A stretch of 64,000 bases of DNA from a virus: IMG/VR virus record IMGVR_UViG_3300032675_001827, positions 1 to 64,000 of that record; one strand, written 5' to 3'. This document shows positions 9,367 through 47,575 of the stretch, in pieces (position 1 is the stretch's first letter; each line of letters starts with the position of its first letter). The position numbers were made by a program, and so were the translations under genes. The notes under the pieces were generated by a model. It was not told the origin of the DNA. It made no database searches and saw nothing but the letters and a program-made list of their open reading frames with translations.

Positions 9367-11204
<1,838 letters not shown>

Positions 11205-27209: not shown

Positions 27210-27923
27210 ATGAATATTGATCAACGTCAATTAGACTACTTGCGCACATTACGTATACATTTTTGCATACCTTGTTATGGCGGTATGCTAAATGAATGTT
27301 TTTTTATTAGCATGCTAAAGTTCATGGCAGCAGCTAATCAATTGCATTTACAATTTACAATTGACACAATGGTCAATGAAAGCCTAATTCCCCGAGGGCG
27401 TAATAGTTTGGTAGCTAAATTTCTAGCATTTGAACCAAAAAGCACCCACCTTATGTTTATTGATAGCGATATCGGGTTTGAGCCAGAAGAAGTGATAAAA
27501 CTAATGTTAGCTCAGAAAGATGTTGCTGGAGGACTTTATCCAAAAAAGGCTCTTCCGGTGCAGTATGTGGTGAACAAAATTCCAAACAGTTCAAAAGAAG
27601 GCAATTTAGTTGAAGTTGCTAATCTTGGTACAGGATTTATGTTAATTAAACGTGAAGTTATTGAAACACTAATTCGTGCAAAACCAGAACTACATTATCA
27701 AGATGCGATTGGTCTTGACGAAAAATATTCACCTTATAAATATGCTTTGTTCGATACTCTTATCGATCCTGTAACAAAGGAGTATTTAAGTGAAGACTAT
27801 TATTTCTGTAAATTGTGGAGAGAGATGGGAGGAAAAATCTGGGCAGATCTTACCATCAAACTTGATCACGCAGGATACTACAAGTTCGGAGGAGATGCAA
27901 CACAACTTGCTCCTCACCTGTGA
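27210..27923 (+). CDS. Glycosyltransferase, GT-A fold
   Basis: 237 residues. HLMFIDSDIGFEPEEVIKLM contains a DSD metal site of GT-A enzymes; LIPRGRNSLVAKFLA and VANLGTGFMLIKREV are typical of a phage glycosyltransferase group seen in T4-type cyanophages and relatives, and LSEDYYFCKLWREMGG supplies a catalytic-base-like acidic pair. It would move a sugar from a nucleotide donor to DNA, protein or a cell-surface glycan; the target is unknown. The end of this gene overlaps the start of the next, a homing endonuclease in another frame. Confidence 0.8.
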   Translation: MNIDQRQLDYLRTLRIHFCIPCYGGMLNECFFISMLKFMAAANQLHLQFTIDTMVNESLIPRGRNSLVAKFLAFEPKSTHLMFIDSDIGFEPEEVIKLMLAQKDVAGGLYPKKALPVQYVVNKIPNSSKEGNLVEVANLGTGFMLIKREVIETLIRAKPELHYQDAIGLDEKYSPYKYALFDTLIDPVTKEYLSEDYYFCKLWREMGGKIWADLTIKLDHAGYYKFGGDATQLAPHL

Positions 27924-29784
27924 TTGTATTAATTGGGTAATATCAGAAAATACAAAACTAAGAGTATCATATGATAATTTGAAGAATGGTCCGTTTGGAC
28001 CATTCTTCAAATACCTTTCTGATTTACTACATACCACAGAACCTAGACAGTTGATGTGGCATGTTATACACGAAAACATTGCCCCCGCATTATGTAAGTG
28101 TGGTTCCCCACGTAAATGGGTTAAAAACAATAATGATTATAGATATACCTGTGGCCCAAAATGTGCAGGCGCTGAGAAATCTAAAAAGAAACCTAGAAAA
28201 CCTAAATTTCTAAAAGGATTGTATTATAACGATCCAGATCGACTTGCAGCAGCTTTGAAAAAACGTCAGGAAAATAGTTTAGAAAAATATGGCACCGATT
28301 GTCCAACAAGCCGGACCGAAGTGTATGAAAAAAGAAAAAAGACAAATCTAGAAAGATATGGAGTAGAGCATCCATTTCAAAATTTAGAAGTGCAGACTAA
28401 GGCTGCAACCACTTTTAAAGAAAATCACAAAAAGGGCAGTGAAAATCATACCAATCTTATAGATAAACGAACAAAAACCAGTATTAAACGATATGGCACT
28501 GAACATCCTATGCAATCTGATCTGATAAAGGATAAGCAACATGCAACTATGATAGATTTATATGGCAATTCGCATGCACTATTAGTACCAGAATTGAATA
28601 ATAAACGTAAAAGGACAAATTTAGAAAAATTTGGTTGTGAAGAAGCTATCGCATCATCAGCAGTTAGACAGAGTATTTCGACTTCTAATCAAGCCAAATA
28701 TGGTGTTGATAATTGGACGCAAACTTTATATTCCGATTATACAAAAGAAATATTGTTTGATCCTTCAAAATTTGAAATAACATTGTCAGGAAAAACATTA
28801 GATGAATCGCGAGATTTATTACAGGTATCGTTACGAACAATATTAAATTTTGCATCGAAATACAGTCTTAGACATATATTCTCTAGAGTTAAAACAACAT
28901 TAATAGAAGCTAAAATAGACAATCTACTATTTGAACATCTCGGAAATACCGGATATATACGAAACAGTAAATCAATAATTCCGCCAAAAGAATTAGACTT
29001 CTATATAGACCGTTATAAATTAGCAATTGAAGTCAATAGATTATACTGGCACAGTGAACTAGGTGGTGCATCACGTGATAGAAATTATCATATAAATAAA
29101 TGGAAGATTTGCAACGAAAAAAATATCACACTATTACAGTTCAATAGTATCGACATCGAGAATAACTGGCATATTGTAGAATCAAAAATAAAAAGGCATA
29201 TTGGTGTACCAATACAAGTAATAGGTGCAAGAAAACTATCTATACAAGTATTGTCTGATACTAAAATTGAACGAGAATTCTTAAATCAATGGCACCTACA
29301 AGGTGCAACAACTAATCGCAATTTCATCATCGGAGCATATTATGAGAACAATTTAATTGGAATCAGTACATGGAAATATATTGGTAATAAAGCAGAGTTA
29401 GTTAGATTTGCTACAAATATAAATTTCAGTTTTCCAGGTCTACTTTCAAGAATGATTAAACGATTTATTCAAGAAACAGGATTTTTTGGAAAACTATTGA
29501 GTTATTCTAGTAATAATCACGGTGATGGCAAGGTTTATAGAGCGTGTGGATTTACATGTGACGGTAATACTGCTCCAGGATATCTTTATACATGTGACTA
29601 TCTACATCTAGAATCAAGAGTTAAATATCAAAAACACAAATTGCAAAAAATGTTTAATTTGACTGACGAGCAGATTAAAATGAAATCTGAATGGGAAATT
29701 ATGCAAGAGCAAGGTTACGATAGAATTTGGGATTCAGGAAACACCAGATGGGTGAAAATAGTAGGATGTGGTGATGCGCAGTAG
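27895..29784 (+). CDS. Vsr-like (EDxHD-type) homing endonuclease
   Basis: About 629 residues from ATG 27895; the frame is open from 27790, so the start is uncertain. A zinc-ribbon-like CKCGSPRKW...YTCGPKC precedes repeated modules of the type RKKTNLERYGVEHPFQN (four or more copies, e.g. LEKYGTDCPT, IKRYGTEHPMQ, LEKFGCEEA), a DNA-binding repeat common in phage endonucleases. The nuclease part is PKELDFYIDRYKLAIEVNRLYWHSE, with the acidic and WH residues of Vsr-type homing nucleases, followed by INKWKICNEKNITLLQF. The C-terminal ~180 residues (EREFLNQWHLQG...IGAYYENNLIGISTWK) look like a GNAT-like fold. It overlaps the glycosyltransferase gene, a likely insertion target. Confidence 0.85.
   Translation: MQHNLLLTCDCINWVISENTKLRVSYDNLKNGPFGPFFKYLSDLLHTTEPRQLMWHVIHENIAPALCKCGSPRKWVKNNNDYRYTCGPKCAGAEKSKKKPRKPKFLKGLYYNDPDRLAAALKKRQENSLEKYGTDCPTSRTEVYEKRKKTNLERYGVEHPFQNLEVQTKAATTFKENHKKGSENHTNLIDKRTKTSIKRYGTEHPMQSDLIKDKQHATMIDLYGNSHALLVPELNNKRKRTNLEKFGCEEAIASSAVRQSISTSNQAKYGVDNWTQTLYSDYTKEILFDPSKFEITLSGKTLDESRDLLQVSLRTILNFASKYSLRHIFSRVKTTLIEAKIDNLLFEHLGNTGYIRNSKSIIPPKELDFYIDRYKLAIEVNRLYWHSELGGASRDRNYHINKWKICNEKNITLLQFNSIDIENNWHIVESKIKRHIGVPIQVIGARKLSIQVLSDTKIEREFLNQWHLQGATTNRNFIIGAYYENNLIGISTWKYIGNKAELVRFATNINFSFPGLLSRMIKRFIQETGFFGKLLSYSSNNHGDGKVYRACGFTCDGNTAPGYLYTCDYLHLESRVKYQKHKLQKMFNLTDEQIKMKSEWEIMQEQGYDRIWDSGNTRWVKIVGCGDAQ
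27978..28011. other. Perfect 15-bp hairpin inside the endonuclease 5' region
   Basis: TTTGAAGAATGGTCC, loop GTTT, then GGACCATTCTTCAAA. It lies 55 bases after the glycosyltransferase stop and is translated in the endonuclease frame (KNGPFGPFF). It could be a transcription attenuator or mRNA structure controlling the endonuclease. Confidence 0.75.
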
Positions 29785-34985: not shown

Positions 34986-37247
34986 TTAAATCTCGTTGTT
35001 TACTAATTCAATATCTTGCTGTTGAAAATTGGTTTCAATTATGTGATGTACTAGATTTCCATTATCAGCTGTGAATAAAACTCCGCCGCCATTTTTAAGT
35101 TTACCAAATAAAATTTCTCTGCTCAAAGGCTTTTTAACGTGCTCCTGCATGACTCTTGCCAATGGGCGTGCACCCATGTTTTTATCAAACCCTTTGTCAA
35201 TCAACCATTGCTTGGCTTGTGCATCAAATGCAATAGTTACACTCTTATTTTGACTTAGGTCATTGAGCTGATTGATAAATTTATCTAGCACTTTGACCAT
35301 GCTATCTTTTGTCAATCTGTTAAAATGAATAGTAGCGTCAAGACGGTTGCGGAATTCAGGAGTAAACCACAACTTGACTGCCTCTTGCCCTGCATCATTG
35401 CGTTCTGAATTACCAAAGCCAATTGAATTTTTTTCCATATCTGAAGCACCGAGATTTGATGTAAAAATCAAAAAGACATTGCGAGCGCTTGCAGTTTTAC
35501 CTGCTTGACTGGATATCATTCCGTTGTCCATTACTTGTAAGAAAATAGATACAATATCTGGATGGGCTTTTTCAATTTCGTCGCATAAAATAACTGCATG
35601 AGGATGTTGTTCTAGTTCATTTATGAGAATTCCAGATCCTGCCGAACCGTCGCCGTAACCTACATAACCGGGCGGCGATCCGATAAATTTGCTGACGCTG
35701 TGTTTTTCCATAAATTCACTCATATCAAATCTTATAAACGGGATATTAAGAGTAGCTGCCAATTGTTTTGCAATTTCTGTTTTTCCTACTCCTGTTGGTC
35801 CGGCAAACAAAAAGGATCCAAGTGTTTTGTTACCTTCGCGTAGACCAGATTTACTGATCAGTACAGCATCTGTTAGATTTAATACAGCTTCGTCTTGACC
35901 AAAAACGGTAGATTTTAGTGTGTTTTCCAATTGTTCAAGATCAACTATCTCTTGTTCACTATCTGATTTGATAGGTATCTTAGTCATCTGACTGATTTCA
36001 TAGGCTATTTCCTCAGTACCAATGCTTTCAACACGTTCATGTAAAGGTTTAATTTTCTGTCGTGCGCCTGCTGAATCTACTATGTCAAGTGCTTTGTCAG
36101 GCAAGCGTTTATCATGTATATATTTTACGCTTAAGTCAACTGCGCTGTCCAAAGCAGCTTTGGTGTAATTTACACCGTGAAATTGACTATAGTATTCACT
36201 TAGAGCATTTACAATGGTTTTAGAATCTTTGATTGATGGTTCTAGTACATCAATACGTTGAAATCTACGCATCAATGCGCGATCTTTTTCAAAATGTTTG
36301 CGAAACTCTTCTTGTGTTGTACTGCCAATGCACCGAATATCACCTCTGCTGAGTGCAGGTTTGAGCAGATTAGCTGCATCCATTGCACCGTTGCTGCCGC
36401 TGCCGGCGCCCATAATCATATGAATTTCATCAATGAATAAGATTGCATGTGGAAGTGCAGTAAAAGCTGAAATAATGTTTTGCATACGTTCTTCAAAATC
36501 ACCTCTAAATTTTGTACCAGCTATTACACTGCTTATATCTAGGCTATAAATGATTTTGTCATTTAGTGTATCAGGAACTGTGCCTTCAACAATATTCTTG
36601 GCCAAACCCTCTACTATCACTGTTTTTCCAACACCCGGATCGCCTAGAAGAATGCCATTGTTTTTATGCCTTCTAGCCATGATCTGTGTAATTTTTAGAA
36701 TCTCAGTTTCTCGACCAATCAATGGATCAATTTTCTTTTGTTTTGCTTTTTCATTGAGATTCACACAGTAATGTTCTAGAATTTCGCGAGCTTCTTTAAT
36801 ATTTGTAGTTGTTTGCTGCTGACTTTTTGTCTTTTGCAACAGTGATAGAACAATTTCTTTCTCAAGACCTGCTGCATTTAAAAAATATGATGCATGGCTA
36901 TTTTCGATGTTGAACATAGCGAGAAATAGATCCATACATCCCATATCACTGCGTGAAGAAAAAATGGTCTGAGTTTTGGCTTTTTTAACTGCTGTTAGCA
37001 GCAGTGAAGTATGACGCGGTTGATAAGATCCGGTTTTCACTAATACATGATTAGTTGCATCATGAATGTAAGCACGAACATCATCGGTTAATTTTTTAAG
37101 ATCTCCTGATGCTTGTGTTATTAAGGCTTGAATATCCTCTAACTCTAACAGAGCCATCAAAAGATGTTCTAAGGTAACAAATTCGTGCCTTAATCCAGCA
37201 GCAATTATATAAGCACGCTTTACAACATCTTCAAAACTATTTTGCAT
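34986..37247 (-). CDS. clpA: ClpA, AAA+ unfoldase of the ClpAP protease
   Basis: 753 residues, against 758 in E. coli. Order: double Clp-N repeat (HEFVTLEHLLMALLE...HTSLLLTAVKKAK), first AAA+ module with GDPGVGKT, LFIDEIH and an arginine finger (RRFQRI), second module with GPTGVGKTE, RFDMSEFMEKHSVSK, GSPPGYVGY and ILCDEIEKAH, then FTPEFRNRLD. A MEKNSIGFGN loop carries IGF, a form of the IGL/IGF tripeptide that docks ClpP, so it should work with a ClpP peptidase. None is encoded in this window, so host ClpP is the likely partner. No middle domain is present, so this is ClpA rather than ClpB/C. It overlaps the deformylase gene by 11 nt. Confidence 0.95.
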   Translation of the reverse strand: MQNSFEDVVKRAYIIAAGLRHEFVTLEHLLMALLELEDIQALITQASGDLKKLTDDVRAYIHDATNHVLVKTGSYQPRHTSLLLTAVKKAKTQTIFSSRSDMGCMDLFLAMFNIENSHASYFLNAAGLEKEIVLSLLQKTKSQQQTTTNIKEAREILEHYCVNLNEKAKQKKIDPLIGRETEILKITQIMARRHKNNGILLGDPGVGKTVIVEGLAKNIVEGTVPDTLNDKIIYSLDISSVIAGTKFRGDFEERMQNIISAFTALPHAILFIDEIHMIMGAGSGSNGAMDAANLLKPALSRGDIRCIGSTTQEEFRKHFEKDRALMRRFQRIDVLEPSIKDSKTIVNALSEYYSQFHGVNYTKAALDSAVDLSVKYIHDKRLPDKALDIVDSAGARQKIKPLHERVESIGTEEIAYEISQMTKIPIKSDSEQEIVDLEQLENTLKSTVFGQDEAVLNLTDAVLISKSGLREGNKTLGSFLFAGPTGVGKTEIAKQLAATLNIPFIRFDMSEFMEKHSVSKFIGSPPGYVGYGDGSAGSGILINELEQHPHAVILCDEIEKAHPDIVSIFLQVMDNGMISSQAGKTASARNVFLIFTSNLGASDMEKNSIGFGNSERNDAGQEAVKLWFTPEFRNRLDATIHFNRLTKDSMVKVLDKFINQLNDLSQNKSVTIAFDAQAKQWLIDKGFDKNMGARPLARVMQEHVKKPLSREILFGKLKNGGGVLFTADNGNLVHHIIETNFQQQDIELVNNEI

Positions 37248-37746
37248 TTTTATTCTGCTTCCTTTTCTTATCTAGTTTTTTCTTAGCCATGCTAAGACTT
37301 AATTTTCCTACACGATCTGTAAAGCATATTCCTTGACAGTGATCAAATTCGTGCATCCATACTCTAGCTTCTAACCCTTCTAGCCTTTCAGTTGTTTCTG
37401 TACCTTCTAAACTGAAATACCTTGCAATCACACCTTCTGGACGTTTTACTTTGAGTAGCAGGCCTGGAAAGCTGAGGCAACCTTCCTCCATTATAATCAT
37501 GTTGAAACTGGCTCCAACTATCTCTGGATTAACGCAGATTCTTATTTTATCGTTAACAAGCATAGCAAACATAGCTAAATCTATGCCCAATTGGCATGCG
37601 CTTACACCAAGCGCATTTTGCTCATAAATTGTTTTAACAAGCAACGAGGCTATTGGTTGCAGTGTATTTTTGTATGTGTCAAATTGTTCTTGAGTTACCA
37701 ATTGTGTTTTGGTATGTAACACTTTATTTGTTGATTCAACTAACAT
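37237..37746 (-). CDS. def: Peptide deformylase
   Basis: 169 residues with all three deformylase motifs: GVSACQLG (motif 1, GxGxAAxQ with S and C substitutions), EEGCLSFPG (motif 2, metal-binding Cys) and WMHEFDHCQG (motif 3, HExDH). The enzyme removes the N-terminal formyl group from new proteins. Phage deformylases are known in marine T4-type phages, where they are thought to support translation of photosystem or phage proteins, but this one is longer than the shortest of those and keeps a C-terminal basic tail (KKKLDKKRKQ). It is followed by clpA, which it overlaps. Confidence 0.93.
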   Translation of the reverse strand: MLVESTNKVLHTKTQLVTQEQFDTYKNTLQPIASLLVKTIYEQNALGVSACQLGIDLAMFAMLVNDKIRICVNPEIVGASFNMIIMEEGCLSFPGLLLKVKRPEGVIARYFSLEGTETTERLEGLEARVWMHEFDHCQGICFTDRVGKLSLSMAKKKLDKKRKQNKNAK

Positions 37747-37767
37747 GTATAATTTTTAACCTTACTA

Positions 37768-38658
37768 CTAATGGTTGTCAATGCTACGATTTTTTTGGAT
37801 TTGACTTAGTAAACTTAAATTTTCTGCGGAAAGATTCTGCGGTATTTCTAATTCTATAATCAAATACAAATCGCCGTGGGTGCCTGGATGTTCTCTTAAT
37901 GGCATACCTTGATTAACTATTCGCAATTTAGTTCCATGTTGAGTCCCTGGCGGGATCGTTACTGAGATTTTATGACCGTTAATTGCATAAATGTGCAATT
38001 TGGTTCCAACAATGGCTGAAATAGCGTCAACTTTGCAATGATGTTCTAAATGATTCCCGTGCCTAACAAATTTAGCATGCGGTGCGATTTCTACATGAAT
38101 GTACAAATCACCAGGCGGTAAACTGGTATTGCTATGATCGCCTTGCCCGGCATATCTTATTCTAGTGCCGTTGTCAATACCTTTGGGAATATCTATTACC
38201 AAATCAATTTTTCTACCACTGTTGGTAGTAAATCCAAGTGGTATCTGCTTTCCGTTATAGGAATCTTCTAGACTTATGTTAATGTTTAAATTTACATCTC
38301 TATTACGCTGAGGAGCTCTTCCAAAACCAGGAAAACCATGTTGACTGAAAAATTGTGCTACAAAATCATCAATATTAGTTGGATTATCAAAAGGACGACC
38401 ATTTACATTTACATTCCAATGAACTCCTCCATGATTTCCATGAAAAGGGTTCTTACGAGTTTGATCGTATTCTCTACGTTTGATTTCGTCACTTAGAATT
38501 TCATATGCTGCACTTATTTCTTTAAATTTAACTTCAGCGTCTTTATTGCCAGAATTGCGATCAGGATGCCACTGCATTGCAAGTTTCCGATAGGCTGCTT
38601 TAATTTCATCAGCTGACGCTGTTTCGTTAATGCCTAATGTTTCATAGTGTGTTGCCAT
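37768..38658 (-). CDS. DnaJ-family co-chaperone (CbpA type)
   Basis: 296 residues. The J domain is at the start: HYETLGINETASADEIKAAYRKLAMQWHPDRN with the HPD that stimulates DnaK ATPase. A G/F-like linker (HGNHGGVHWNVNVNGRPF) follows, then two beta-sandwich client-binding domains (PLGFTTNSGRKIDLVIDIPKG and TIPPGTQHGTKLRIVNQGMP). There is no CxxCxGxG zinc domain, so it is the CbpA/class B kind. With DnaK at 9382-12368 the phage has both halves of an Hsp70 system, although they lie 26 kb apart. Upstream neighbour is the GAF-like membrane gene on the other strand. Confidence 0.92.
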   Translation of the reverse strand: MATHYETLGINETASADEIKAAYRKLAMQWHPDRNSGNKDAEVKFKEISAAYEILSDEIKRREYDQTRKNPFHGNHGGVHWNVNVNGRPFDNPTNIDDFVAQFFSQHGFPGFGRAPQRNRDVNLNINISLEDSYNGKQIPLGFTTNSGRKIDLVIDIPKGIDNGTRIRYAGQGDHSNTSLPPGDLYIHVEIAPHAKFVRHGNHLEHHCKVDAISAIVGTKLHIYAINGHKISVTIPPGTQHGTKLRIVNQGMPLREHPGTHGDLYLIIELEIPQNLSAENLSLLSQIQKNRSIDNH

Positions 38659-39484: not shown

Positions 39485-40225
39485 GTGCAAATATTGATCC
39501 CCATGGGCGGTGCTGGTAGCAGATTTTCAGCTGCCGGATATGATCGTCCAAAACCATTTATAGAATTTCATGGTCAAACAATGATAGAAAATGTGGTTGA
39601 AAATCTTGGGCTTGATAATGAATATATCTTTGTAACGCAGCGCAGCCATTATGATGAATTTAGACTGGTTTATGAACGTATTCGAAACAAAGTACAGAAG
39701 CTACAGGTAGCAGTATTAGAAGGAATGACACGCGGGGCTGCAGAAAGTTGCTTGTACGCAAAAGATTTTCTTGATTTAGATATGCCACTAATGATCGCTA
39801 ATTGCGATCAGATGCTCGAATGGAACCCTGTTGTATTTAAAGCCTGGCTGTTTGATACAAAGATAGATGGCGCTATAATGACATTTGAAAGCCAAAGCCC
39901 TAAGAATAGCTTTGCAAGGCTGGACGAAGATGGGTTTGTAGTAGAAACAGCTGAAAAAAAAGTTATAAGTCCTTACGCAACAAACGGAATTTACGTGTGG
40001 AAACGTGCAGCTGATTTCGTTTCAGCTGCAGAAGAATTGATTGCTAGAGATTTACGAACGAACAATGAATTTTATGTAGCCCCTTGTTATAATCTTAATA
40101 TTGAACGTGGGCAAAAGATCAAAATCTATCCCATTAACGGTCACTGGCCTATTGGTACACCGCAGGATCTAACCATATATCTGGATCATTTTGGAGGAAA
40201 GCGTAATGCAAATACACACAGTTGA
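39485..40225 (+). CDS. Sugar nucleotidyltransferase
   Basis: 246 residues from GTG 39485 (TAGGAGAGTTTTACC before it). QILIPMGGAGSRFSAAGYDRPKPFIEFHGQTMIENVV is the NTP-binding signature of sugar-1-phosphate nucleotidyltransferases (GGxGxR...KP); LMIANCDQML gives the metal-binding aspartate. NSFARLDEDGFV and TNGIYVWKR are later family features. The enzyme would make an NDP-sugar. It opens a run of glycan and carbohydrate-type genes (39485-47575). The cupin start is nested in its end. Confidence 0.85.
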   Translation: MQILIPMGGAGSRFSAAGYDRPKPFIEFHGQTMIENVVENLGLDNEYIFVTQRSHYDEFRLVYERIRNKVQKLQVAVLEGMTRGAAESCLYAKDFLDLDMPLMIANCDQMLEWNPVVFKAWLFDTKIDGAIMTFESQSPKNSFARLDEDGFVVETAEKKVISPYATNGIYVWKRAADFVSAAEELIARDLRTNNEFYVAPCYNLNIERGQKIKIYPINGHWPIGTPQDLTIYLDHFGGKRNANTHS

Positions 40226-40541
40226 TAGTTTAGTAGGTGGTTGGTTTGTTGGTGCATTTTCTGGCGCAGTGTATCGCACCAGTGCGGTAGAAGTTTCATA
40301 CAAACAGCATTATGCAGGCGAAAAATGGCCTGCACATTATCATAAAATAGCTGACGAAATAAACTATCTAATAAGCGGCAAAATGGAAGTTGGCGGGCAA
40401 ATGTTAGAAGGACCTGTTATTTTTACAATTCCCAAAGGAGAAGTTTCAGCACCAGTATTTCACACAGATGTAACACTAATTGTAGTCAAAGTCCCTGGTG
40501 CACTCAACGACAAATATAATCTGGATGATCCAACAGTATGA
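40206..40541 (+). CDS. Cupin-domain protein
   Basis: 111 residues from ATG 40206 (GGAGGAAAGCG before it; the TTG at 40191 is not needed). KWPAHYHKIADEINYLISGKMEVGG holds the cupin metal motif (H.H....E), and the second motif is less clear (APVFHTDVTLIVVK). The gene overlaps the nucleotidyltransferase in the previous frame, so the two are coupled. In sugar pathways such cupins are isomerases or epimerases, but no specific reaction can be inferred. Confidence 0.75.
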   Translation: MQIHTVDSLVGGWFVGAFSGAVYRTSAVEVSYKQHYAGEKWPAHYHKIADEINYLISGKMEVGGQMLEGPVIFTIPKGEVSAPVFHTDVTLIVVKVPGALNDKYNLDDPTV

Positions 40542-41086
40542 TAGTAGAGCGCGAAGATCACAAATATTGTTTAGATATTGGAAGACCAACATTTTATACA
40601 GATGAACACAGAGATTTTTACAAAAAGATTTTTGATGTAATTGAAAACTCGCCAATACCTATGGTTGTAAACGGTATTTATAATCGGATAAAAAAAATGC
40701 TTTATGCAGGGTCTGGATATGGCGGGGGAGGTTTTGCTTTTTGCTTTTGGTTCGCAACCAAAGAAGACAGAAGAGAATTTGCACGATCGATGAAAGGCAT
40801 TGAAGTATCTATAGAAGACTGGCGAAATGTTACGTGGTATCAACCTTATCAATCTAAAATTTTGGTTTTGAAGTTCAACGGCAAGTATCTAGATCATGTG
40901 CAGCAATTTGCACAAAACAATGACATTACCATGCAACCATATATGAGTCCGCCACAAGGATTTGGCCGGGAATTGGATAAATCTCAATGGGATGTTATTC
41001 CAGGTCTACATGTGGCATCAGGTGATTACAAATTATTGTTAGAGTTAAAGCATCATCTCAATGATGTATTTTTAGATTTTGATTGA
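40538..41086 (+). CDS. Hypothetical phage protein
   Basis: 182 residues (MIVEREDHKYCLDIGRPTFY...). Contains YAGSGYGGGGFAFCFWFATKEDRREFAR and a long aromatic stretch; ATGA overlap with the cupin gene. I recognise no domain. The stop is TGA (41084-41086) with a TAA a few codons later in frame. Confidence 0.6.
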   Translation: MIVEREDHKYCLDIGRPTFYTDEHRDFYKKIFDVIENSPIPMVVNGIYNRIKKMLYAGSGYGGGGFAFCFWFATKEDRREFARSMKGIEVSIEDWRNVTWYQPYQSKILVLKFNGKYLDHVQQFAQNNDITMQPYMSPPQGFGRELDKSQWDVIPGLHVASGDYKLLLELKHHLNDVFLDFD

Positions 41087-41318: not shown

Positions 41319-42044
41319 TTACATTTTAATATTACGACGATCTAGTTCTCTTTTCAATGCAACAAGTTTATTGTTATCGCGCGAAATAGCATTGCGTATT
41401 TCACCTGCTACACCCGAAGGCAATGCACGCAGAACAGCATTAACTAGTTGTTCTGCTTGTGTTTGCGATTTTGCATGTGCTGCCTTTTTTTCAGCAGTTT
41501 CTTTGTCTTTTTTCTCTGCATATTTGTCTGAAATACTTAGCCCTGTTGCTGTTTTATCTTTAGATCTTTTCTTGTCTGATTTAGCATAATCGTCTAGACG
41601 ATCTAAAACATCTTGGTATGCCAGATCCTGTTTATGCCATGCTAATGCATTACGTGCCAGATGTTCGTAATTTGTATCTTTTCCAATCTTAACTAAAATG
41701 GGTGTTAGTGCTTCTGCCATATGCCTTAAATTTTCAGCCGATGGTTCTCGTAGGAACATACGTAATGCACTAGATGATTGACTGGGAGCTTGGTCAGCTA
41801 GATGATGCAAGTGAGAGATTAAATTTTTGCCGTCTTCGTTTAACCATTTTGAAATTACTCCCTTTTCCAACAAACGGAAGCCGCCCATACTGTCATTGTT
41901 TTCGGCATATTTCTGTGCCATGGATTCTAGTTTACTGTACAGTTCGGTTACGGGATTTCCAATGTCACTGGCAAGTAATTTTAAGGTGCTGGCTAGAGAG
42001 ACACTTTCAAGCATCACTCCGTCAATTATTTCAACTATACGCAT
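41319..42044 (-). CDS. Hypothetical helical protein (MRIxEI start)
   Basis: 241 residues, helical, with a lysine- and alanine-rich coiled coil near the end (SKDKTATGLSISDKYAEKKD...AEKKAAHAKSQTQAEQ). Its N-terminus MRIVEIIDGVMLESVSLASTL resembles MRIFELLLEYDVSKVNSLAS of the gene at 279, which suggests a shared N-terminal tag, as seen for proteins sorted into T4-type heads; that is speculation. GGAGTCTAGAC precedes the ATG and GATAAATA lies upstream. Confidence 0.6.
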   Translation of the reverse strand: MRIVEIIDGVMLESVSLASTLKLLASDIGNPVTELYSKLESMAQKYAENNDSMGGFRLLEKGVISKWLNEDGKNLISHLHHLADQAPSQSSSALRMFLREPSAENLRHMAEALTPILVKIGKDTNYEHLARNALAWHKQDLAYQDVLDRLDDYAKSDKKRSKDKTATGLSISDKYAEKKDKETAEKKAAHAKSQTQAEQLVNAVLRALPSGVAGEIRNAISRDNNKLVALKRELDRRNIKM

Positions 42045-42160: not shown

Positions 42161-43300
42161 ATGACAATTGACATTGTTCAAGATAAAAAAGATTTAGACA
42201 ATTACTTTTATGTAAAATATTTCCTTAAGAGTGCAACTTCACTCTACGATGCAGCGTTTGATCTTGCAGTTGGTCAAAGTATCGGTAATCCAAGCATGAG
42301 AAGTGTTTGGGAAACCCCAGAAATGATTGCCTCTTATTGTGCAAAAATTCTACGAAGCCCTGATTTAGACCTAGCAGAAGGCCAAGTTGAAATAGGTTTT
42401 CCTTTGGTTAATATTGATTGGGCAACAGATGGTATAGCTCAGCTTCTGTGTACCATAGCGGGCGGACAAGTTGATATAGATCGTATCAAGGGCTGCCGAG
42501 CAATAGGCTTGGAATTTAGTGAAAGTTTTATAGAATCTAATTTCAAAAAACCTAAATTTGGATTAAGCGGATTTAGAGCTTTAACCGGGCAGTATAACAA
42601 GCCACTATTTGGTGGCATTATTAAACCAAAAACTGGAATTACCCCTGATCAATTACTTGATATGACCAAGCAGTTAGTCGACGGAGGCTGTGATTTTATA
42701 AAAGAAGATGAGATTATGGCAAACCCTGCTGTTTGCAGCCTTGAAGACCGTGTAGAATTAATTAGCCGGTACATAAGCAACACCAAAACAGTATACTGTT
42801 TTTGCATCAATGCAGACCCTGCATATATTGTACCAAGAGCTAAGTTTGTTGCTGAAAATGGTGGGCGCGGTGTACACATTAATGTATGGAGCGGTCTTGG
42901 CTCATACAAAAGCATTCGTGATTTAGACTTACCCCTTTACATACACTATCAAAAGAGTGGTGATAGAATATTTACAAGCAAATACAATCCATTTTCTATT
43001 TCGTGGCAACTTTGCTGTCAGCTGGCAGCTTGGTGCGGAGTTGATACTATCCACGCTGGCATGTGGGGTGGTTATCTGTCAGATCCAGAAGATGAACTAC
43101 GCGAAACACTGAAAATACTAACTGATAGGAACGTTACCCCTGCGCTTAGTTGCGGATTAACAAGTGAAAGTATAAGGCCAATAGTTGATAAATTTGGCGT
43201 AGACTGGCTGGGAAATAGTGGTGGTGGAATACATAGCCATCCAGAAGGTAGTCAAACCGGGGCGGCAAAAATTAGAGCTGCTGTAGACCAAATAGGCTAA
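42161..43300 (+). CDS. RuBisCO-like protein (form IV type)
   Basis: 379 residues. KPLFGGIIKPKTGIT matches loop 1 of the RuBisCO large subunit, with both lysines (K155, K157). GGCDFIKEDEIM matches the metal site: K181 (carbamylated Lys), D183 and E184. IHYQKSG gives H262, but the usual Arg after it is Y. GVDTIHAGMWGGYL gives H298, but the loop 6 lysine is Y305. LSCGLTSE and NSGGGIHSHPEG are the phosphate-binding loops. Missing Arg and loop 6 Lys rule out normal carboxylase activity and point to a form IV RuBisCO-like protein, which do enolisation, isomerisation or decarboxylation of phosphorylated sugars. At 379 residues it is a little short. It lies in a run of sugar and glycan genes. No strong ribosome site. 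Confidence 0.93.
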   Translation: MTIDIVQDKKDLDNYFYVKYFLKSATSLYDAAFDLAVGQSIGNPSMRSVWETPEMIASYCAKILRSPDLDLAEGQVEIGFPLVNIDWATDGIAQLLCTIAGGQVDIDRIKGCRAIGLEFSESFIESNFKKPKFGLSGFRALTGQYNKPLFGGIIKPKTGITPDQLLDMTKQLVDGGCDFIKEDEIMANPAVCSLEDRVELISRYISNTKTVYCFCINADPAYIVPRAKFVAENGGRGVHINVWSGLGSYKSIRDLDLPLYIHYQKSGDRIFTSKYNPFSISWQLCCQLAAWCGVDTIHAGMWGGYLSDPEDELRETLKILTDRNVTPALSCGLTSESIRPIVDKFGVDWLGNSGGGIHSHPEGSQTGAAKIRAAVDQIG

Positions 43301-43305
43301 AAGCA

Positions 43306-43923
43306 TTGAAAATAGCAGTATCATTCAGTGGGTTACCTAGGTTACATCACAGGTCTATGTATGCGTGGGAAGGTTTAATCAAAAATACTTCAGCTGATGT
43401 CTACATGCACCTGTGGAACACCGGCGATGGTGCAGCTGAAAAAATGGTTGAGATTTATTCACCTGTTTCTTATAGTATTGAAAATTTCAGAAATTTTGAT
43501 GTGTCTCAGTATACAGAACGTCTGCAGTATTCAAATCCGTACAACGTTTTAAGTATGTGGACTAGTATATCAGAAAGCATTAATTTGGTATTAGGATCTA
43601 AACAAACATACGATATAGTAATTCGTGCAAGATCTGATGTGGAATTTGATCAATTTCAATTCCTAAACAACCACGGAGTAATAATACCCGGAAAACCAGC
43701 TGAAATATACGAGTATAATGGCGAGAGGTACCCTGGCTGGCACGACATGATTGCTTATGGTAATTTAAGTAGCATGCGCGAGTACGCAAATACCTTGTAT
43801 TCAATACCTACGATTTATTCAGAAGGCAGTCCATTTTTTAGTGAATTTTTTCTTAGCACGCACCTTTATAGAACGAAAACAAACGTTACACATCATAACA
43901 TATATGCAGATATAGTAAGATAG
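43306..43923 (+). CDS. Glycosyltransferase-like protein of the CLxGHxR family, copy 2
   Basis: 205 residues from TTG 43306, six bases after the RuBisCO-like stop. MKIAVSFSGLPRLHHRSMYAW and ADVYMHLWN open it; YDIVIRARSDVEFDQF is the DxD-like site; HDMIAYGNLSSMREYANTLYSIP follows. The gene at 45853-46497 has the same order and many identical positions, and 17506-18237 is a more distant copy. Likely a glycosyltransferase, reaction unknown. Confidence 0.7.
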   Translation: MKIAVSFSGLPRLHHRSMYAWEGLIKNTSADVYMHLWNTGDGAAEKMVEIYSPVSYSIENFRNFDVSQYTERLQYSNPYNVLSMWTSISESINLVLGSKQTYDIVIRARSDVEFDQFQFLNNHGVIIPGKPAEIYEYNGERYPGWHDMIAYGNLSSMREYANTLYSIPTIYSEGSPFFSEFFLSTHLYRTKTNVTHHNIYADIVR

Positions 43924-43936
43924 CAAGGATTTTTAA

Positions 43937-45853
43937 ATGGTAGATTTTATGCAATACGAGGACAATCCTGATAGTCCTGAAACTCTTTTGACATTTAGCA
44001 ATGAACTGGCAAATGATAGATTACATAATCTTTCAGTTCTTATTGCAGAACGGGGTTTAGAGCGTACTGTAGATCATACAACACGAACAAAATTATTAGA
44101 ACAAATTAGTATAAGTGGTTTTTATACAAAAGGGCCAGATGGTAAAAAACGAGGTAAAGAAGCCTGTGAAGAATTAGCATTAGATCGCAAAAACAGCTGG
44201 CATACCAAAAATTTAGCCCGCCAGAACAGCACTTACTATGCTAGAAGTTTGTCTTCACTATTACCAAAGACTGAATGCAAACCGTTTGTCTATACTCCGC
44301 CAGATGATTATAAACCTATGAATCCTAGTATTACCAATAAAGGTAGCGAGTTATGGATGATTCAACGAACTGTAAATTATGTTATTAGGCCCGATGGCAG
44401 CTATAACATGCGAGGCGACAGTGCTATTAGAACACGCAATTATCTCTGTCAATTAGATGAACAATTACAATGTGTGTCTGCTAGAGAAATACTACCTCCG
44501 CTAAATCTGCCGCCAGCACAATATGGGGCTGTAATTGGATGGGAGGATTGCAGACTGTTTTACTGGAATGATAGTTTTTGGTGTACTAGCACGGTTCGAG
44601 AATTAAATGCAGAAGGTTACTGTGAAATTGTTCTTTCTAAAATTATAGAACAAGATGGTTTTTTATATTTTTCCGACTATTGTGTAATACAGCCGCAATT
44701 TTGTGGTAGAGAGCATCAAAAAAATTGGATGCCAATGGTGGTAGGCACAGATTTATATTTTATGTACAGCAGTGATCCAGCAAGAATCATTGATGTAAAT
44801 GGAAACTTGATAAGCAGCAAAGCGACACATATTGCAGCCGACAGTTTTAGAGGAGGTAGTCAACTATTGCCGTTTAATGGAGGTTGGCTAGCCATAATAC
44901 ACGAAAGTCATATAATGCCTGATAACAAAAGAAGGTATATGCATAGACTTGTATGGTATGATAACATAGGACGATTATCCAAATACAGTGAAGCTTTTTT
45001 TATACACACACTTGGTATAGAATTTGCAGCTGGATTGGCCTTTAAAAAAGACAGCGGCCAAATTGTTATAAGCTTTGGTTTAGCTGATAAGGAAAGCTGG
45101 GTGGCATTGATTGACGAAAACGAACTTTGTCAAATACTTCAACCGGCAGGTGTAATCCTGCCAAGACTAGGCGACTTAAATGATACAAGCTGGATTATAA
45201 GTCAGACCAACCGTTCGCTGCTTGACAGCGATAGCGTCAGCAAAGCAACTGGTATTGCGTTGCGAGCTGGCATATCTAGTCACGAGGATGCAGCCAAAAA
45301 TTGGGATAACCTTGTAGCAGTTTGGCATGCAACTATGACAACTGATATCGATAGTCCAGTTATGGATGTAGCTGCTACAGAAGGCAGTGCGTTTCTTCCT
45401 GCCTTAGAAAGATTTGGCTATCAACATTTATTCAGTATAAACATTGATGAACCAAATCCACGCACAATTGGAAAAATTCATTATCAACATGGCGATTGTA
45501 CCAACACAAGTTTCGAAGATAATTACTTTGGATTTATATCCTGTTTGAGTGTTATAGAACATGGAGTTGATATTCAAAAATTCATGCAGGAATCTGCAAG
45601 AATTCTCAAGTCAGGTGGCTATCTCTTGGTAAGCACAGATTATTGGCAAGACACTGTTGATACATTTGGGCAAACTGCATTTGGATCACCTGTGAAAGTT
45701 TTTACAGCTCAAGAAATCGCTGAATTAATAAATTTTGCTCAATCAGCAGGCTTACAAATTACCAGCAATGTTGATTTAACCTGCAACGAACGAGTGGTTA
45801 ATTGGATAGGCATGGATTATACATTTATTAATTTGCTTTTTAGGAAGCCTTGA
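43937..45853 (+). CDS. GH130-like beta-propeller fused to a SAM methyltransferase
   Basis: 638 residues. The N-terminal part to about residue 390 looks like a five-bladed propeller of the GH130/GH43 kind: PSITNKGSELWMIQRTVNY, VIGWEDCRLFYWNDSFWCTSTV, NWMPMV, RGGSQLLPFNGGWLAIIHE and FFIHTLGIEFAAGLAF, matching the repeated E-D-x-R and G-x-x-x-L-P strands of mannoside phosphorylases. The C-terminal ~170 residues are a class I methyltransferase: SPVMDVAATEGSAFLPAL (motif I is degenerate), YFGFISCLSVIEHGVD and ARILKSGGYLLVSTDYW (promoter-typical type 11 order). The two domains together are unusual. Likely acts on a nucleotide-linked or lipid-linked glycan. Confidence 0.75.
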   Translation: MVDFMQYEDNPDSPETLLTFSNELANDRLHNLSVLIAERGLERTVDHTTRTKLLEQISISGFYTKGPDGKKRGKEACEELALDRKNSWHTKNLARQNSTYYARSLSSLLPKTECKPFVYTPPDDYKPMNPSITNKGSELWMIQRTVNYVIRPDGSYNMRGDSAIRTRNYLCQLDEQLQCVSAREILPPLNLPPAQYGAVIGWEDCRLFYWNDSFWCTSTVRELNAEGYCEIVLSKIIEQDGFLYFSDYCVIQPQFCGREHQKNWMPMVVGTDLYFMYSSDPARIIDVNGNLISSKATHIAADSFRGGSQLLPFNGGWLAIIHESHIMPDNKRRYMHRLVWYDNIGRLSKYSEAFFIHTLGIEFAAGLAFKKDSGQIVISFGLADKESWVALIDENELCQILQPAGVILPRLGDLNDTSWIISQTNRSLLDSDSVSKATGIALRAGISSHEDAAKNWDNLVAVWHATMTTDIDSPVMDVAATEGSAFLPALERFGYQHLFSINIDEPNPRTIGKIHYQHGDCTNTSFEDNYFGFISCLSVIEHGVDIQKFMQESARILKSGGYLLVSTDYWQDTVDTFGQTAFGSPVKVFTAQEIAELINFAQSAGLQITSNVDLTCNERVVNWIGMDYTFINLLFRKP

Positions 45854-46497
45854 TGAAAATAGCACTGGCTTTAAGTGGGCTGACACGGATACATGCCATA
45901 TCAGCTGCAAGCTGGGGTAGAATTATCGGAAAGTATCAACCAGATGTTTATATTCATTCATGGTGCTTGCCTGCAGATATGTCTGTTATATATGACCAAC
46001 TAGGCCGGGTGTTCAAACCTAAACAAATATTGCTGGAAGAGCCTATAAGTATTGACACAGCCCCTTACCCAGACCGGCACTGGCCCTATATAAATGTTGA
46101 CCGCAGCTTAAGTATGTGGCATAGTATTTGTAGAGCTTATAGTATGGTAATTGAGCATGACGTAAATTATGATATAATTATAAGAGGCAGAATGGATTGG
46201 CATGTTCACAGCTTAGATTTAATTGATCATGATGGTATTGTTTTGCCGTATGATAGAGATAAGATTCCTTTAAAATTTAACTATAATGGTAACAACATGC
46301 ACGGCTTAAACGATCATTTTGCTTATGGGTCGCCAAAATGGATGAAATGTTACACAAATACTCTTGCACTTATACCGCAACTATACTCTCAAGAGGGTGT
46401 GGATTACTGTCCTGAAAATTTTCTTGCAGCAAGTCTGGCCAAACAACATGTACCAGTAATGCTACAAAATCTTGAACATTGTTTAATACGGAGTTGA
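45853..46497 (+). CDS. Glycosyltransferase-like protein of the CLxGHxR family, copy 3
   Basis: 214 residues from ATG 45853, sharing its first base with the previous stop TGA (ATGA-type overlap). KIALALSGLTRIHAIS, PDVYIHSWCLPAD, DIIIRGRMDWHVHSL and LNDHFAYGSPKWM match copy 2 (43306-43923) in order. No signal peptide or membrane segment. Probably a cytosolic glycosyltransferase. Confidence 0.7.
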   Translation: MKIALALSGLTRIHAISAASWGRIIGKYQPDVYIHSWCLPADMSVIYDQLGRVFKPKQILLEEPISIDTAPYPDRHWPYINVDRSLSMWHSICRAYSMVIEHDVNYDIIIRGRMDWHVHSLDLIDHDGIVLPYDRDKIPLKFNYNGNNMHGLNDHFAYGSPKWMKCYTNTLALIPQLYSQEGVDYCPENFLAASLAKQHVPVMLQNLEHCLIRS

Positions 46498-46498
46498 A

Positions 46499-47575
46499 AT
46501 GAAAATAGGAATATATGGTCCGGCTAAAAACGAACGACACCATGTAGATGCTTGGTTTGAAAGTTGCAAAAATGCCGATGTAATTTGCATTGCTGATACA
46601 GGAAGTACAGATGGTACACGAGAACGATTGATAGAACTAGGTGTAAATGTAACTGATGTAAGAATAGTACCATGGAGATTCGACGATGCTTTTAATATGG
46701 CAATGTACCTTTTGCCAGATGATGTTGATGTCTGCATTCGCCTTGATATAGACGAACGACTCCAGCCAGGATGGCGAGAAGCGTTAGAACGAGATTGGAC
46801 ACCAGAAACTACAAGATTACGATATCCTTACGTTTGGAACTGGAATCCAGATGGCACACCTGGCAGGCAATGGTATAGTGATCGTATCCATGCTAGATCA
46901 GGTTACAGGTGGGTCGGTGCAACACACGAAGGTTTATGCAGTAGAATACCCGAGGTTCAAACATTTACAGATGATGTTAAAATTTGGCAATTTCCAGACG
47001 CCAAAGACAAGAAGAATGATTTATCATTGTTGCTAGAAAGTGTGAGAGACTGGCCACAAGATGCAAGACTATGGGCATACTTGGGTAGAGAATATATGTA
47101 TCAAGGTCTATATGAAAAGAGCGTTGAAACTTATAAACAGTTTTTAACTATGAGCTGGGATAAAGTAGAACGCGGCCAGGCTATGGTCAATCTAAGCATT
47201 ACTGATTCAGGTAATAAAGAGTTTTGGCTTAGAATGGCCAGTATTGAAACACCAGGACACAGAGAACCGTTGGTCAATCTTGCACAATACTATTACGATA
47301 AAAAAGATTGGACAAAATGCTATGAAGCATCTAAAAAGGCATTAGAAATAACTGTTCATCCTATGGATTATACTTGTACTCCCGAAGCATGGGGTTGGCA
47401 ACCACATGATTTACTGAGTATAGCTGCATGGAATCTTGGATTATTTCAAGAAAGTTATGAACAAAGCCTGATAGCTCTTGAGAAAAATCCGCATGATCAA
47501 CGACTGCAGAGTAATCTAAAATTGGTAGCCGATTTTATAACAGAAAATAATCTAAATTCAAACAAAACCAGCTGA
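46499..47575 (+). CDS. GT2 glycosyltransferase with C-terminal TPR-like repeats
   Basis: 358 residues, one base after the previous stop. IYGPAKNERHHVDAWFESCK and DVICIADTGSTDGTRE are the GT2 start with the first conserved aspartates; DVCIRLDIDERLQPGW carries the DxD; YRWVGATHEGL is the acceptor-loop motif of this group. From about residue 180, helical pairs (LWAYLGREYMYQGLYEKSVETYKQFL, and similar) form TPR-like repeats. This is the domain layout of many phage and bacterial GT2-TPR proteins. Last gene of the 39485-47575 glycan run, convergent with infA. Confidence 0.85.
   Translation: MKIGIYGPAKNERHHVDAWFESCKNADVICIADTGSTDGTRERLIELGVNVTDVRIVPWRFDDAFNMAMYLLPDDVDVCIRLDIDERLQPGWREALERDWTPETTRLRYPYVWNWNPDGTPGRQWYSDRIHARSGYRWVGATHEGLCSRIPEVQTFTDDVKIWQFPDAKDKKNDLSLLLESVRDWPQDARLWAYLGREYMYQGLYEKSVETYKQFLTMSWDKVERGQAMVNLSITDSGNKEFWLRMASIETPGHREPLVNLAQYYYDKKDWTKCYEASKKALEITVHPMDYTCTPEAWGWQPHDLLSIAAWNLGLFQESYEQSLIALEKNPHDQRLQSNLKLVADFITENNLNSNKTS

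Follow-up and report, generated by a model that had tools for sequence, protein, structure and literature searches.

A RuBisCO-like protein of large T4-type phages and its possible role in nucleotide-sugar synthesis

The window analyzed here, 64,000 nucleotides (positions 1 to 64,000) of the IMG/VR virus record IMGVR_UViG_3300032675_001827 (74,604 bases), encodes a RuBisCO-like protein (vRLP) that, on balance, appears to be a non-carboxylating Mg-carbamate isomerase or epimerase of a phosphorylated sugar, feeding the neighboring nucleotidyltransferase. More tentatively, and with somewhat less than even confidence, we propose that vRLP belongs to nucleotide-sugar biosynthesis: this one enzyme would supply the sugar phosphate that otherwise comes from an isomerase/kinase/phosphatase set or from a HAD enzyme, so that large T4-type phages would obtain an uncommon NDP-sugar for glycans of their own or of the host. 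To our knowledge, no other member of the RuBisCO superfamily has a role in nucleotide-sugar biosynthesis. A preliminary description of this DNA had suggested that the infecting phage uses a new reaction on sugars, and the evidence on gene replacement presented below gives this suggestion a sharper form.

Family, active site and phylogenetic position of vRLP

According to our analysis, vRLP is a genuine protein of the RuBisCO superfamily: its sole Pfam match, PF00016, is over the cut-off (99 bits, E = 4e-28; cut-off 30.1), a RuBisCO fold is predicted and the K-x-D-E residues of the carbamate site are kept. The AlphaFold model, for which 48 aligned family members served as input, had a pLDDT of 93.8, and its closest solved fold was the form III RuBisCO of Pyrococcus (2d69; TM 0.88, 26% identity). 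None of the NCBIfam equivalog cut-offs was reached; the top score was that of rubisco_III (154 bits versus 497), followed by the OiaX model NF042437 (119 versus 700) and the MtnW models TIGR03332 and NF007095 (95 and 105 versus 514 and 409, respectively). No PHROGs family matched vRLP, and the fold search of BFVD revealed no viral RuBisCO-like protein (top TM about 0.4). A chance reading frame is ruled out by the intact homologous frames in 84 other fetched loci and by the low pairwise dN/dS (NG86), which was about 0.07–0.16 in the four pairs with an estimable dS; in two others, including the window's own pair, dS was saturated.

The residues of the active site were mapped by pairwise alignments, an alignment of 86 rows and 73 distinct family sequences (the carboxylase residue is given first). 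In agreement with the preliminary description, the loop 1 lysines (K175 = K155, K177 = K157), the Lys-x-Asp-Glu metal site (K201 = K181, D203 = D183, E204 = E184) and the phosphate-loop residues (S379 = S330, G381 = G332, G403/G404 = G354/G355) are retained in vRLP, and the loop 6 lysine is replaced by tyrosine (K334 to Y305). The metal-site residues K181, D183 and E184 are invariant in all 73 family sequences. Two other readings had to be revised. Both active-site histidines were described as kept, but the H294 position is occupied by Gln264, invariant in the 73 sequences, and the H327 position, His298 in vRLP, is histidine in 61 and glutamine in 12 of them; His262, which had been read as the catalytic histidine, precedes the H294 position by two residues in both the pairwise and the family alignments. 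The arginine beside the first histidine, previously read as tyrosine, corresponds to Lys265 (R295; lysine in 64 of 73). Apart from H294 and K334, the invariant replacements are E60 to G38, T65 to N43, W66 to P44, N123 to G102, T173 to I153 and G380 to C331, so that the eight carboxylase residues E60, T65, W66, N123, T173, H294, R295 and K334 are all replaced. Judged by sequence, the metal and enolization core is intact, and the CO2-handling shell and much of the RuBP-binding shell have been rebuilt. As both H294 and R295 are changed, the substrate binding of vRLP should differ from that of the characterized members. Carbamylation and catalysis are predicted for vRLP from the same residues.

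In the phylogenetic tree, with references from forms I, II, II/III and III, MtnW, OiaX-like and other RLPs and without IV-GOS and IV-AMC, the viral sequences formed a single clade (support 100/100) with a long stem (1.6–1.8 changes per site), which was excluded from the clade of bona fide carboxylases (99/97). Instead of the placement with the OiaX or MtnW groups that had been considered earlier, vRLP thus has its own clade; the OiaX side is likewise a separate clade (100/99), and vRLP joins it with a support of only 77/47. Membership in MtnW or OiaX was rejected, given the scores far under the cut-offs and the different clade, apart from the MtnW entries 2zvi and 2oek. With its carboxylase residues lost and its position outside forms I–III, vRLP can be classified as a RuBisCO-like protein, form IV in the broad sense, and the non-carboxylase profile recognized in the preliminary description is borne out.

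Comparison with the known groups shows what vRLP shares with each of them. The form III RuBisCOs (Pyrococcus 2d69 and 2cwx, Thermococcus 3a12, and 8dht) have the same fold, carbamate Mg-site residues and K175/K177, but are separated from vRLP by the eight replaced residues and by the bona fide clade. The OiaX-like RLPs, together with the form IV RLP of Burkholderia fungorum (3nwr), are the nearest, weakly supported cellular group (about 26–30% identity); they are non-carboxylating, as is predicted for vRLP, but are cellular or plasmid genes with partners in sugar-acid catabolism, and they retain HxHR (3nwr also the GK loop), whereas vRLP differs at the H294 and K334 positions. MtnW and the R. 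rubrum-type RLP (YkrW/DeepYkr, form IV) perform enolase/isomerase chemistry on phosphorylated ketoses, as proposed for vRLP; however, K177 is lost in MtnW and kept in vRLP, the clades are separate, and sulfur salvage genes were not seen among the vRLP neighbors. GOS RuBisCO homologues outside forms I–IV, 65 of them unplaced, were reported in 2007 (Yooseph et al., 2007; PMC1821046), and a IV-GOS subgroup has been named (PMC10173188). The passages of these two papers that concern such homologues link them neither with viruses nor with a sugar-nucleotide module, and the GOS sequences may include vRLP.

Two kinds of RLP were observed in Bacteroidota. Short RLPs of about 367–424 aa (L161–L179) occur in roughly a tenth of the sampled genomes; they were rejected as cellular kin of vRLP, as they fall on the MtnW side of the tree and score 53–90 bits against the viral profile, and the nearest PDB entry of one of them (L170) is 3qfw. 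The other RLPs, of about 435 aa (L147–L159), form a distinct clade present in many sampled genomes, and its tested member falls below all NCBIfam equivalog cut-offs.

Gene neighborhood of vRLP and its replacement by other enzymes

Table 1. Features of the window discussed in the text (positions are those of the window).
Feature	Position	Strand	Remarks
Homing/HNH endonuclease gene	10079-11146
Homing/HNH endonuclease gene	27790-29784
Clp ATPase, peptide deformylase and DnaJ, consecutive	34986-38658	-
RmlA-type sugar-phosphate nucleotidyltransferase (c1)	39485..40225	+	stand-alone, 246 aa; best PDB relative 4evw
Small cupin (c2)	40191..40541	+	phrog_24762; predicted cupin barrel, pLDDT 93.9
182-aa protein between cupin and vRLP	40538..41086	+	no relatives in fetched loci
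241-aa ORF between cupin and vRLP	41319-42044	-	no relative in fetched loci
RuBisCO-like protein (vRLP)	42161..43300	+	ATG ORF, 379 aa
Glycosyltransferase-like protein (c4 family)	43306..43923	+	phrog_13607; putative glycosyltransferase
638-aa protein with C-terminal SAM methyltransferase domain	43937..45853	+	Pfam match in C-terminal half only
Second c4-family protein	45850..46497	+	weak DUF7796 match
GT2-like glycosyltransferase with TPR	46499..47575	+	phrog_13126, beta-1,4-glycosyltransferase

As described before, and as confirmed by Pfam and PHROG matches, a sugar nucleotidyltransferase and glycosyltransferases adjoin vRLP (Table 1); the 638-aa protein, previously taken for a GH130-like fusion, a reading that finds no support, has its Pfam match in the methyltransferase half only. 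Among 54 dereplicated vRLP loci, the RmlA-type nucleotidyltransferase was found in 53, the cupin (about 108 aa) in 45, a GDPD-like protein (about 153 aa; motif HRG..EN..E.D..HD) in 43, the c4 family in 33 and NDP-sugar epimerases in 22; additional neighbors were GT2, FkbM and other methyltransferases, WavE and GT10/GT11. In a wider set, the nucleotidyltransferase lies within 6 kb of vRLP in 140 of 142 loci. H49 and E56 of the cupin are invariant and H51 nearly so, and its fold matches, phosphomannose isomerase and KdgF among them, are generic and point to no single function. The PDB profile matches of the GDPD-like protein to GDPD were weak, and its gene was absent from the window; the PDB profile search with the c4 family gave no match. 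The two reading frames between the cupin and vRLP in the window are perhaps a recent insertion that split the cassette.

The same module also occurs with other enzymes in the place of vRLP. The locus counts overstate independence, because most loci without vRLP came from one bait and are related (72 of 95 were fetched by one cyanophage cupin): among 146 dereplicated module loci, 97 contained vRLP (88 without any alternative enzyme, 9 with a HAD enzyme and none with RpiB, PfkB or KdsC), and all 49 loci without vRLP carried at least one alternative, a HAD enzyme or the RpiB/PfkB/KdsC set. Hence, over these loci, vRLP and the RpiB set never occurred together, and no locus lacked both vRLP and an alternative. 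This pattern is what matters; given the related loci and the biased baits, the Fisher p-value is not to be taken as a probability. In the cupin-profile set alone, 33 dereplicated loci had vRLP (5 of them also HAD) and 17 did not. No HAD, RpiB or PfkB homologues were found in the window. The nucleotidyltransferase of the vRLP loci almost always stands alone (about 240 aa); at the other loci it is mostly part of a fusion (about 365–460 aa). On the FastTree phylogeny of the nucleotidyltransferase, the presence of vRLP changes at least five times, four of these changes being forced by well-supported branches.

The alternative enzymes are best seen in cultured Synechococcus phages, which lack vRLP but share the nucleotidyltransferase (identity up to 45%) and the GDPD-like protein with the vRLP loci; two of them share the cupin as well. 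Phage Bellamy encodes a fusion of the nucleotidyltransferase with an RpiB/LacAB isomerase (TIGR00689 over the cut-off), adjoined by genes for a PfkB-like kinase and a KdsC-like phosphatase, with that of an HddA-like heptose kinase nearby; the fusion partner in S-CAM9 is a HAD protein of the beta-phosphoglucomutase type, and other virus contigs show a C-terminal HAD fusion (weak GmhB/HAD-IIIA matches). The Bellamy and S-CAM9 modules have the nucleotidyltransferase, GDPD-like and c4 families in common with the vRLP loci (Bellamy also the cupin), but carry a HAD enzyme or the isomerase/kinase/phosphatase set instead of vRLP. The synthesis of NDP-heptose proceeds in the order isomerase, kinase, phosphatase and nucleotidyltransferase, and the cyanophage set follows this logic. 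Since the replaced modules differ among themselves (HAD only versus isomerase, kinase and phosphatase), “replacement” may mean another sugar rather than the same step.

Distribution and carrier viruses

A pattern scan of IMG/VR with the vRLP of the window revealed 230 relatives, and a profile-led scan revealed 355 vRLP contigs, which sets the number of environmental virus contigs at no less than 355; because the scans rely on short peptide patterns, distant members are undercounted in these numbers. Identity within the fetched vRLP sets was 49–79%. The earlier description considered such a gene unusual in phage DNA. This holds for isolates, as no vRLP was found by tblastn in INPHARED (50,697 phage records), but not for environmental viruses, in which the gene is common. 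In a pattern scan of 84,980 cellular genomes (one per species), only four contigs with vRLP were found. One of them (142 kb, in a “Sphingobacteriales” MAG; L085, G004:C58) bears the T4 gp23 capsid gene and thus comes from a phage, although it was binned with bacterial DNA, a misplacement that would lead surveys of host genes astray; the other three, of 3.3, 6.3 and 42 kb, may be viral or cellular. Given these four contigs, one of them from a phage, vRLP was rejected as a cellular family.

The phage origin of the DNA, stated in the preliminary description, is upheld. The carriers of vRLP are large T4-type phages, because gp23 was present in all eight tested RLP-bearing virus records over 150 kb (the largest of 518 kb) and the window itself encodes T4-type rIIA, rIIB and tail-fiber genes. 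The only lead from host prediction for the window was the distant similarity of its rIIA to that of Ruegeria phage RpAliso. A chimera with host DNA, which would have undermined the earlier description, is ruled out by the T4-type genes, the flat GC content of the region (35–40%) and the left flank shared by five related contigs from separate metagenomes, all with the Clp ATPase and DnaJ and four with the deformylase. This consecutive row of Clp ATPase, deformylase and DnaJ genes is a phage protein-quality set. Two homing/HNH endonuclease genes were also observed in the window (Table 1).

Proposed function of vRLP and its alternatives

In the mechanism that we propose, a carbamylated Lys181 would hold Mg2+ together with Asp183 and Glu184, with Lys155 and Lys157 beside the metal, and Ser330, Gly332 and Gly354/355 would bind the phosphate. 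vRLP would deprotonate a phosphorylated ketose and return the proton at another position via an enediolate, resulting in isomerization or epimerization; the neighboring nucleotidyltransferase would then activate the sugar phosphate to an NDP-sugar, and the cupin, the GDPD-like protein and the glycosyltransferases might finish the product or attach it to a glycan of the virus or the host. The type of reaction, the order of the steps and the use of the product are predictions from sequences and gene order. A role as ketose-phosphate isomerase or epimerase appears the likeliest because an enolization site stands in place of the isomerase/kinase/phosphatase set, and a building block for glycans is suggested by the adjacent sugar-nucleotide gene and by the slot of a sugar-phosphate isomerase, kinase or phosphatase. 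This reading is supported by the invariance of the metal and enolization residues in the 73 sequences, the replacement of the CO2-handling residues, mostly by invariant ones, the fold match to RuBisCO, the linkage to the nucleotidyltransferase, the module replacement and the repeated changes on the tree; against it stand the 9 of 97 vRLP loci with a HAD enzyme and the lack of the GDPD-like protein in the window. The kinase and phosphatase steps, absent at vRLP loci, may be supplied by the host; alternatively, a different phosphate may serve the nucleotidyltransferase. A precedent for the isomerase reading is the R. rubrum RLP, which isomerizes 5-methylthioribulose-1-phosphate by proton transfer, a cupin enzyme taking the product (PMC4958253).

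Within the same sugar-nucleotide module, vRLP might catalyze another reaction, namely decarboxylation, aldol-type cleavage or enolization with loss of a group (as OiaX), which would give a shorter or branched sugar. We consider this unlikely, although the weakly supported sister of vRLP is the OiaX-like decarboxylase side (77/47), the top single RLP structure by sequence, 3nwr, belongs to that side, and four-carbon acid sugar kinases are found among the OiaX-like plasmid loci; 3nwr keeps HxHR and GK where vRLP differs at the K334 and H294 positions, and the listed recurring neighbors of vRLP include no kinase, oxidase or acid-sugar family. It is improbable that vRLP is an RLP of the methionine-salvage or apiose type (MtnW, MTRu-1P isomerase, OiaX) that serves host catabolism as an auxiliary metabolic gene (AMG): its 95–119 bits against cut-offs of 409–700, its separate 100/100 clade and its nucleotidyltransferase, glycosyltransferase and methyltransferase neighbors, instead of mtn or oia genes, outweigh the common superfamily and the matches to NCBIfam models at E values from 1e-27 to 1e-34. 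It is also quite improbable that vRLP is a passenger, independent or without catalysis, whose linkage to the nucleotidyltransferase reflects nothing but the packing together of glycan genes in phages. The region is indeed rich in varied glycan genes and vRLP is at times separated from the cupin, but the linkage to one nucleotidyltransferase family in 53 of 54 loci, the low dN/dS, the invariant metal site and the repeated swap with sugar-phosphate enzymes argue against it.

Viral rbcL has been listed as an AMG for carbon fixation, with activity claimed once, for a soil gene (PMC12615777), and one viral gene was reported as “RbcL-like” (PMC12607003). These reports, and the fact that rubisco_III is the best NCBIfam match of vRLP by bit score, would agree with a true carboxylase that boosts CO2 fixation by the host; we regard this as extremely improbable, in view of the score far below the rubisco_III cut-off, the eight replaced residues, mostly invariantly so, and the position outside the bona fide clade. 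Carboxylation does not follow from a RuBisCO HMM match of a viral gene, and the active site of an “rbcL” from virus surveys needs to be checked before CO2 fixation is read from it.

If the isomerase/epimerase reading in nucleotide-sugar synthesis is true, vRLP would add to the RuBisCO superfamily an almost wholly viral and widespread clade tied to the building of glycans instead of to sulfur salvage or carbon fixation. Because vRLP and the isomerase/kinase/phosphatase sets replace each other, its function can be tested in vitro: the nucleotidyltransferase provides a coupled assay, and a candidate for the sugar comes from the cyanophage set. That set, composed of a KdsC-like phosphatase, a PfkB-like kinase, the nucleotidyltransferase-RpiB fusion and the cupin, was observed in Bellamy (L186; 6788-9466) and in 72 IMG/VR contigs (L284–L355); its genes are annotated mostly as hypothetical or “phosphatase,” and it looks like a previously undescribed viral NDP-sugar route.
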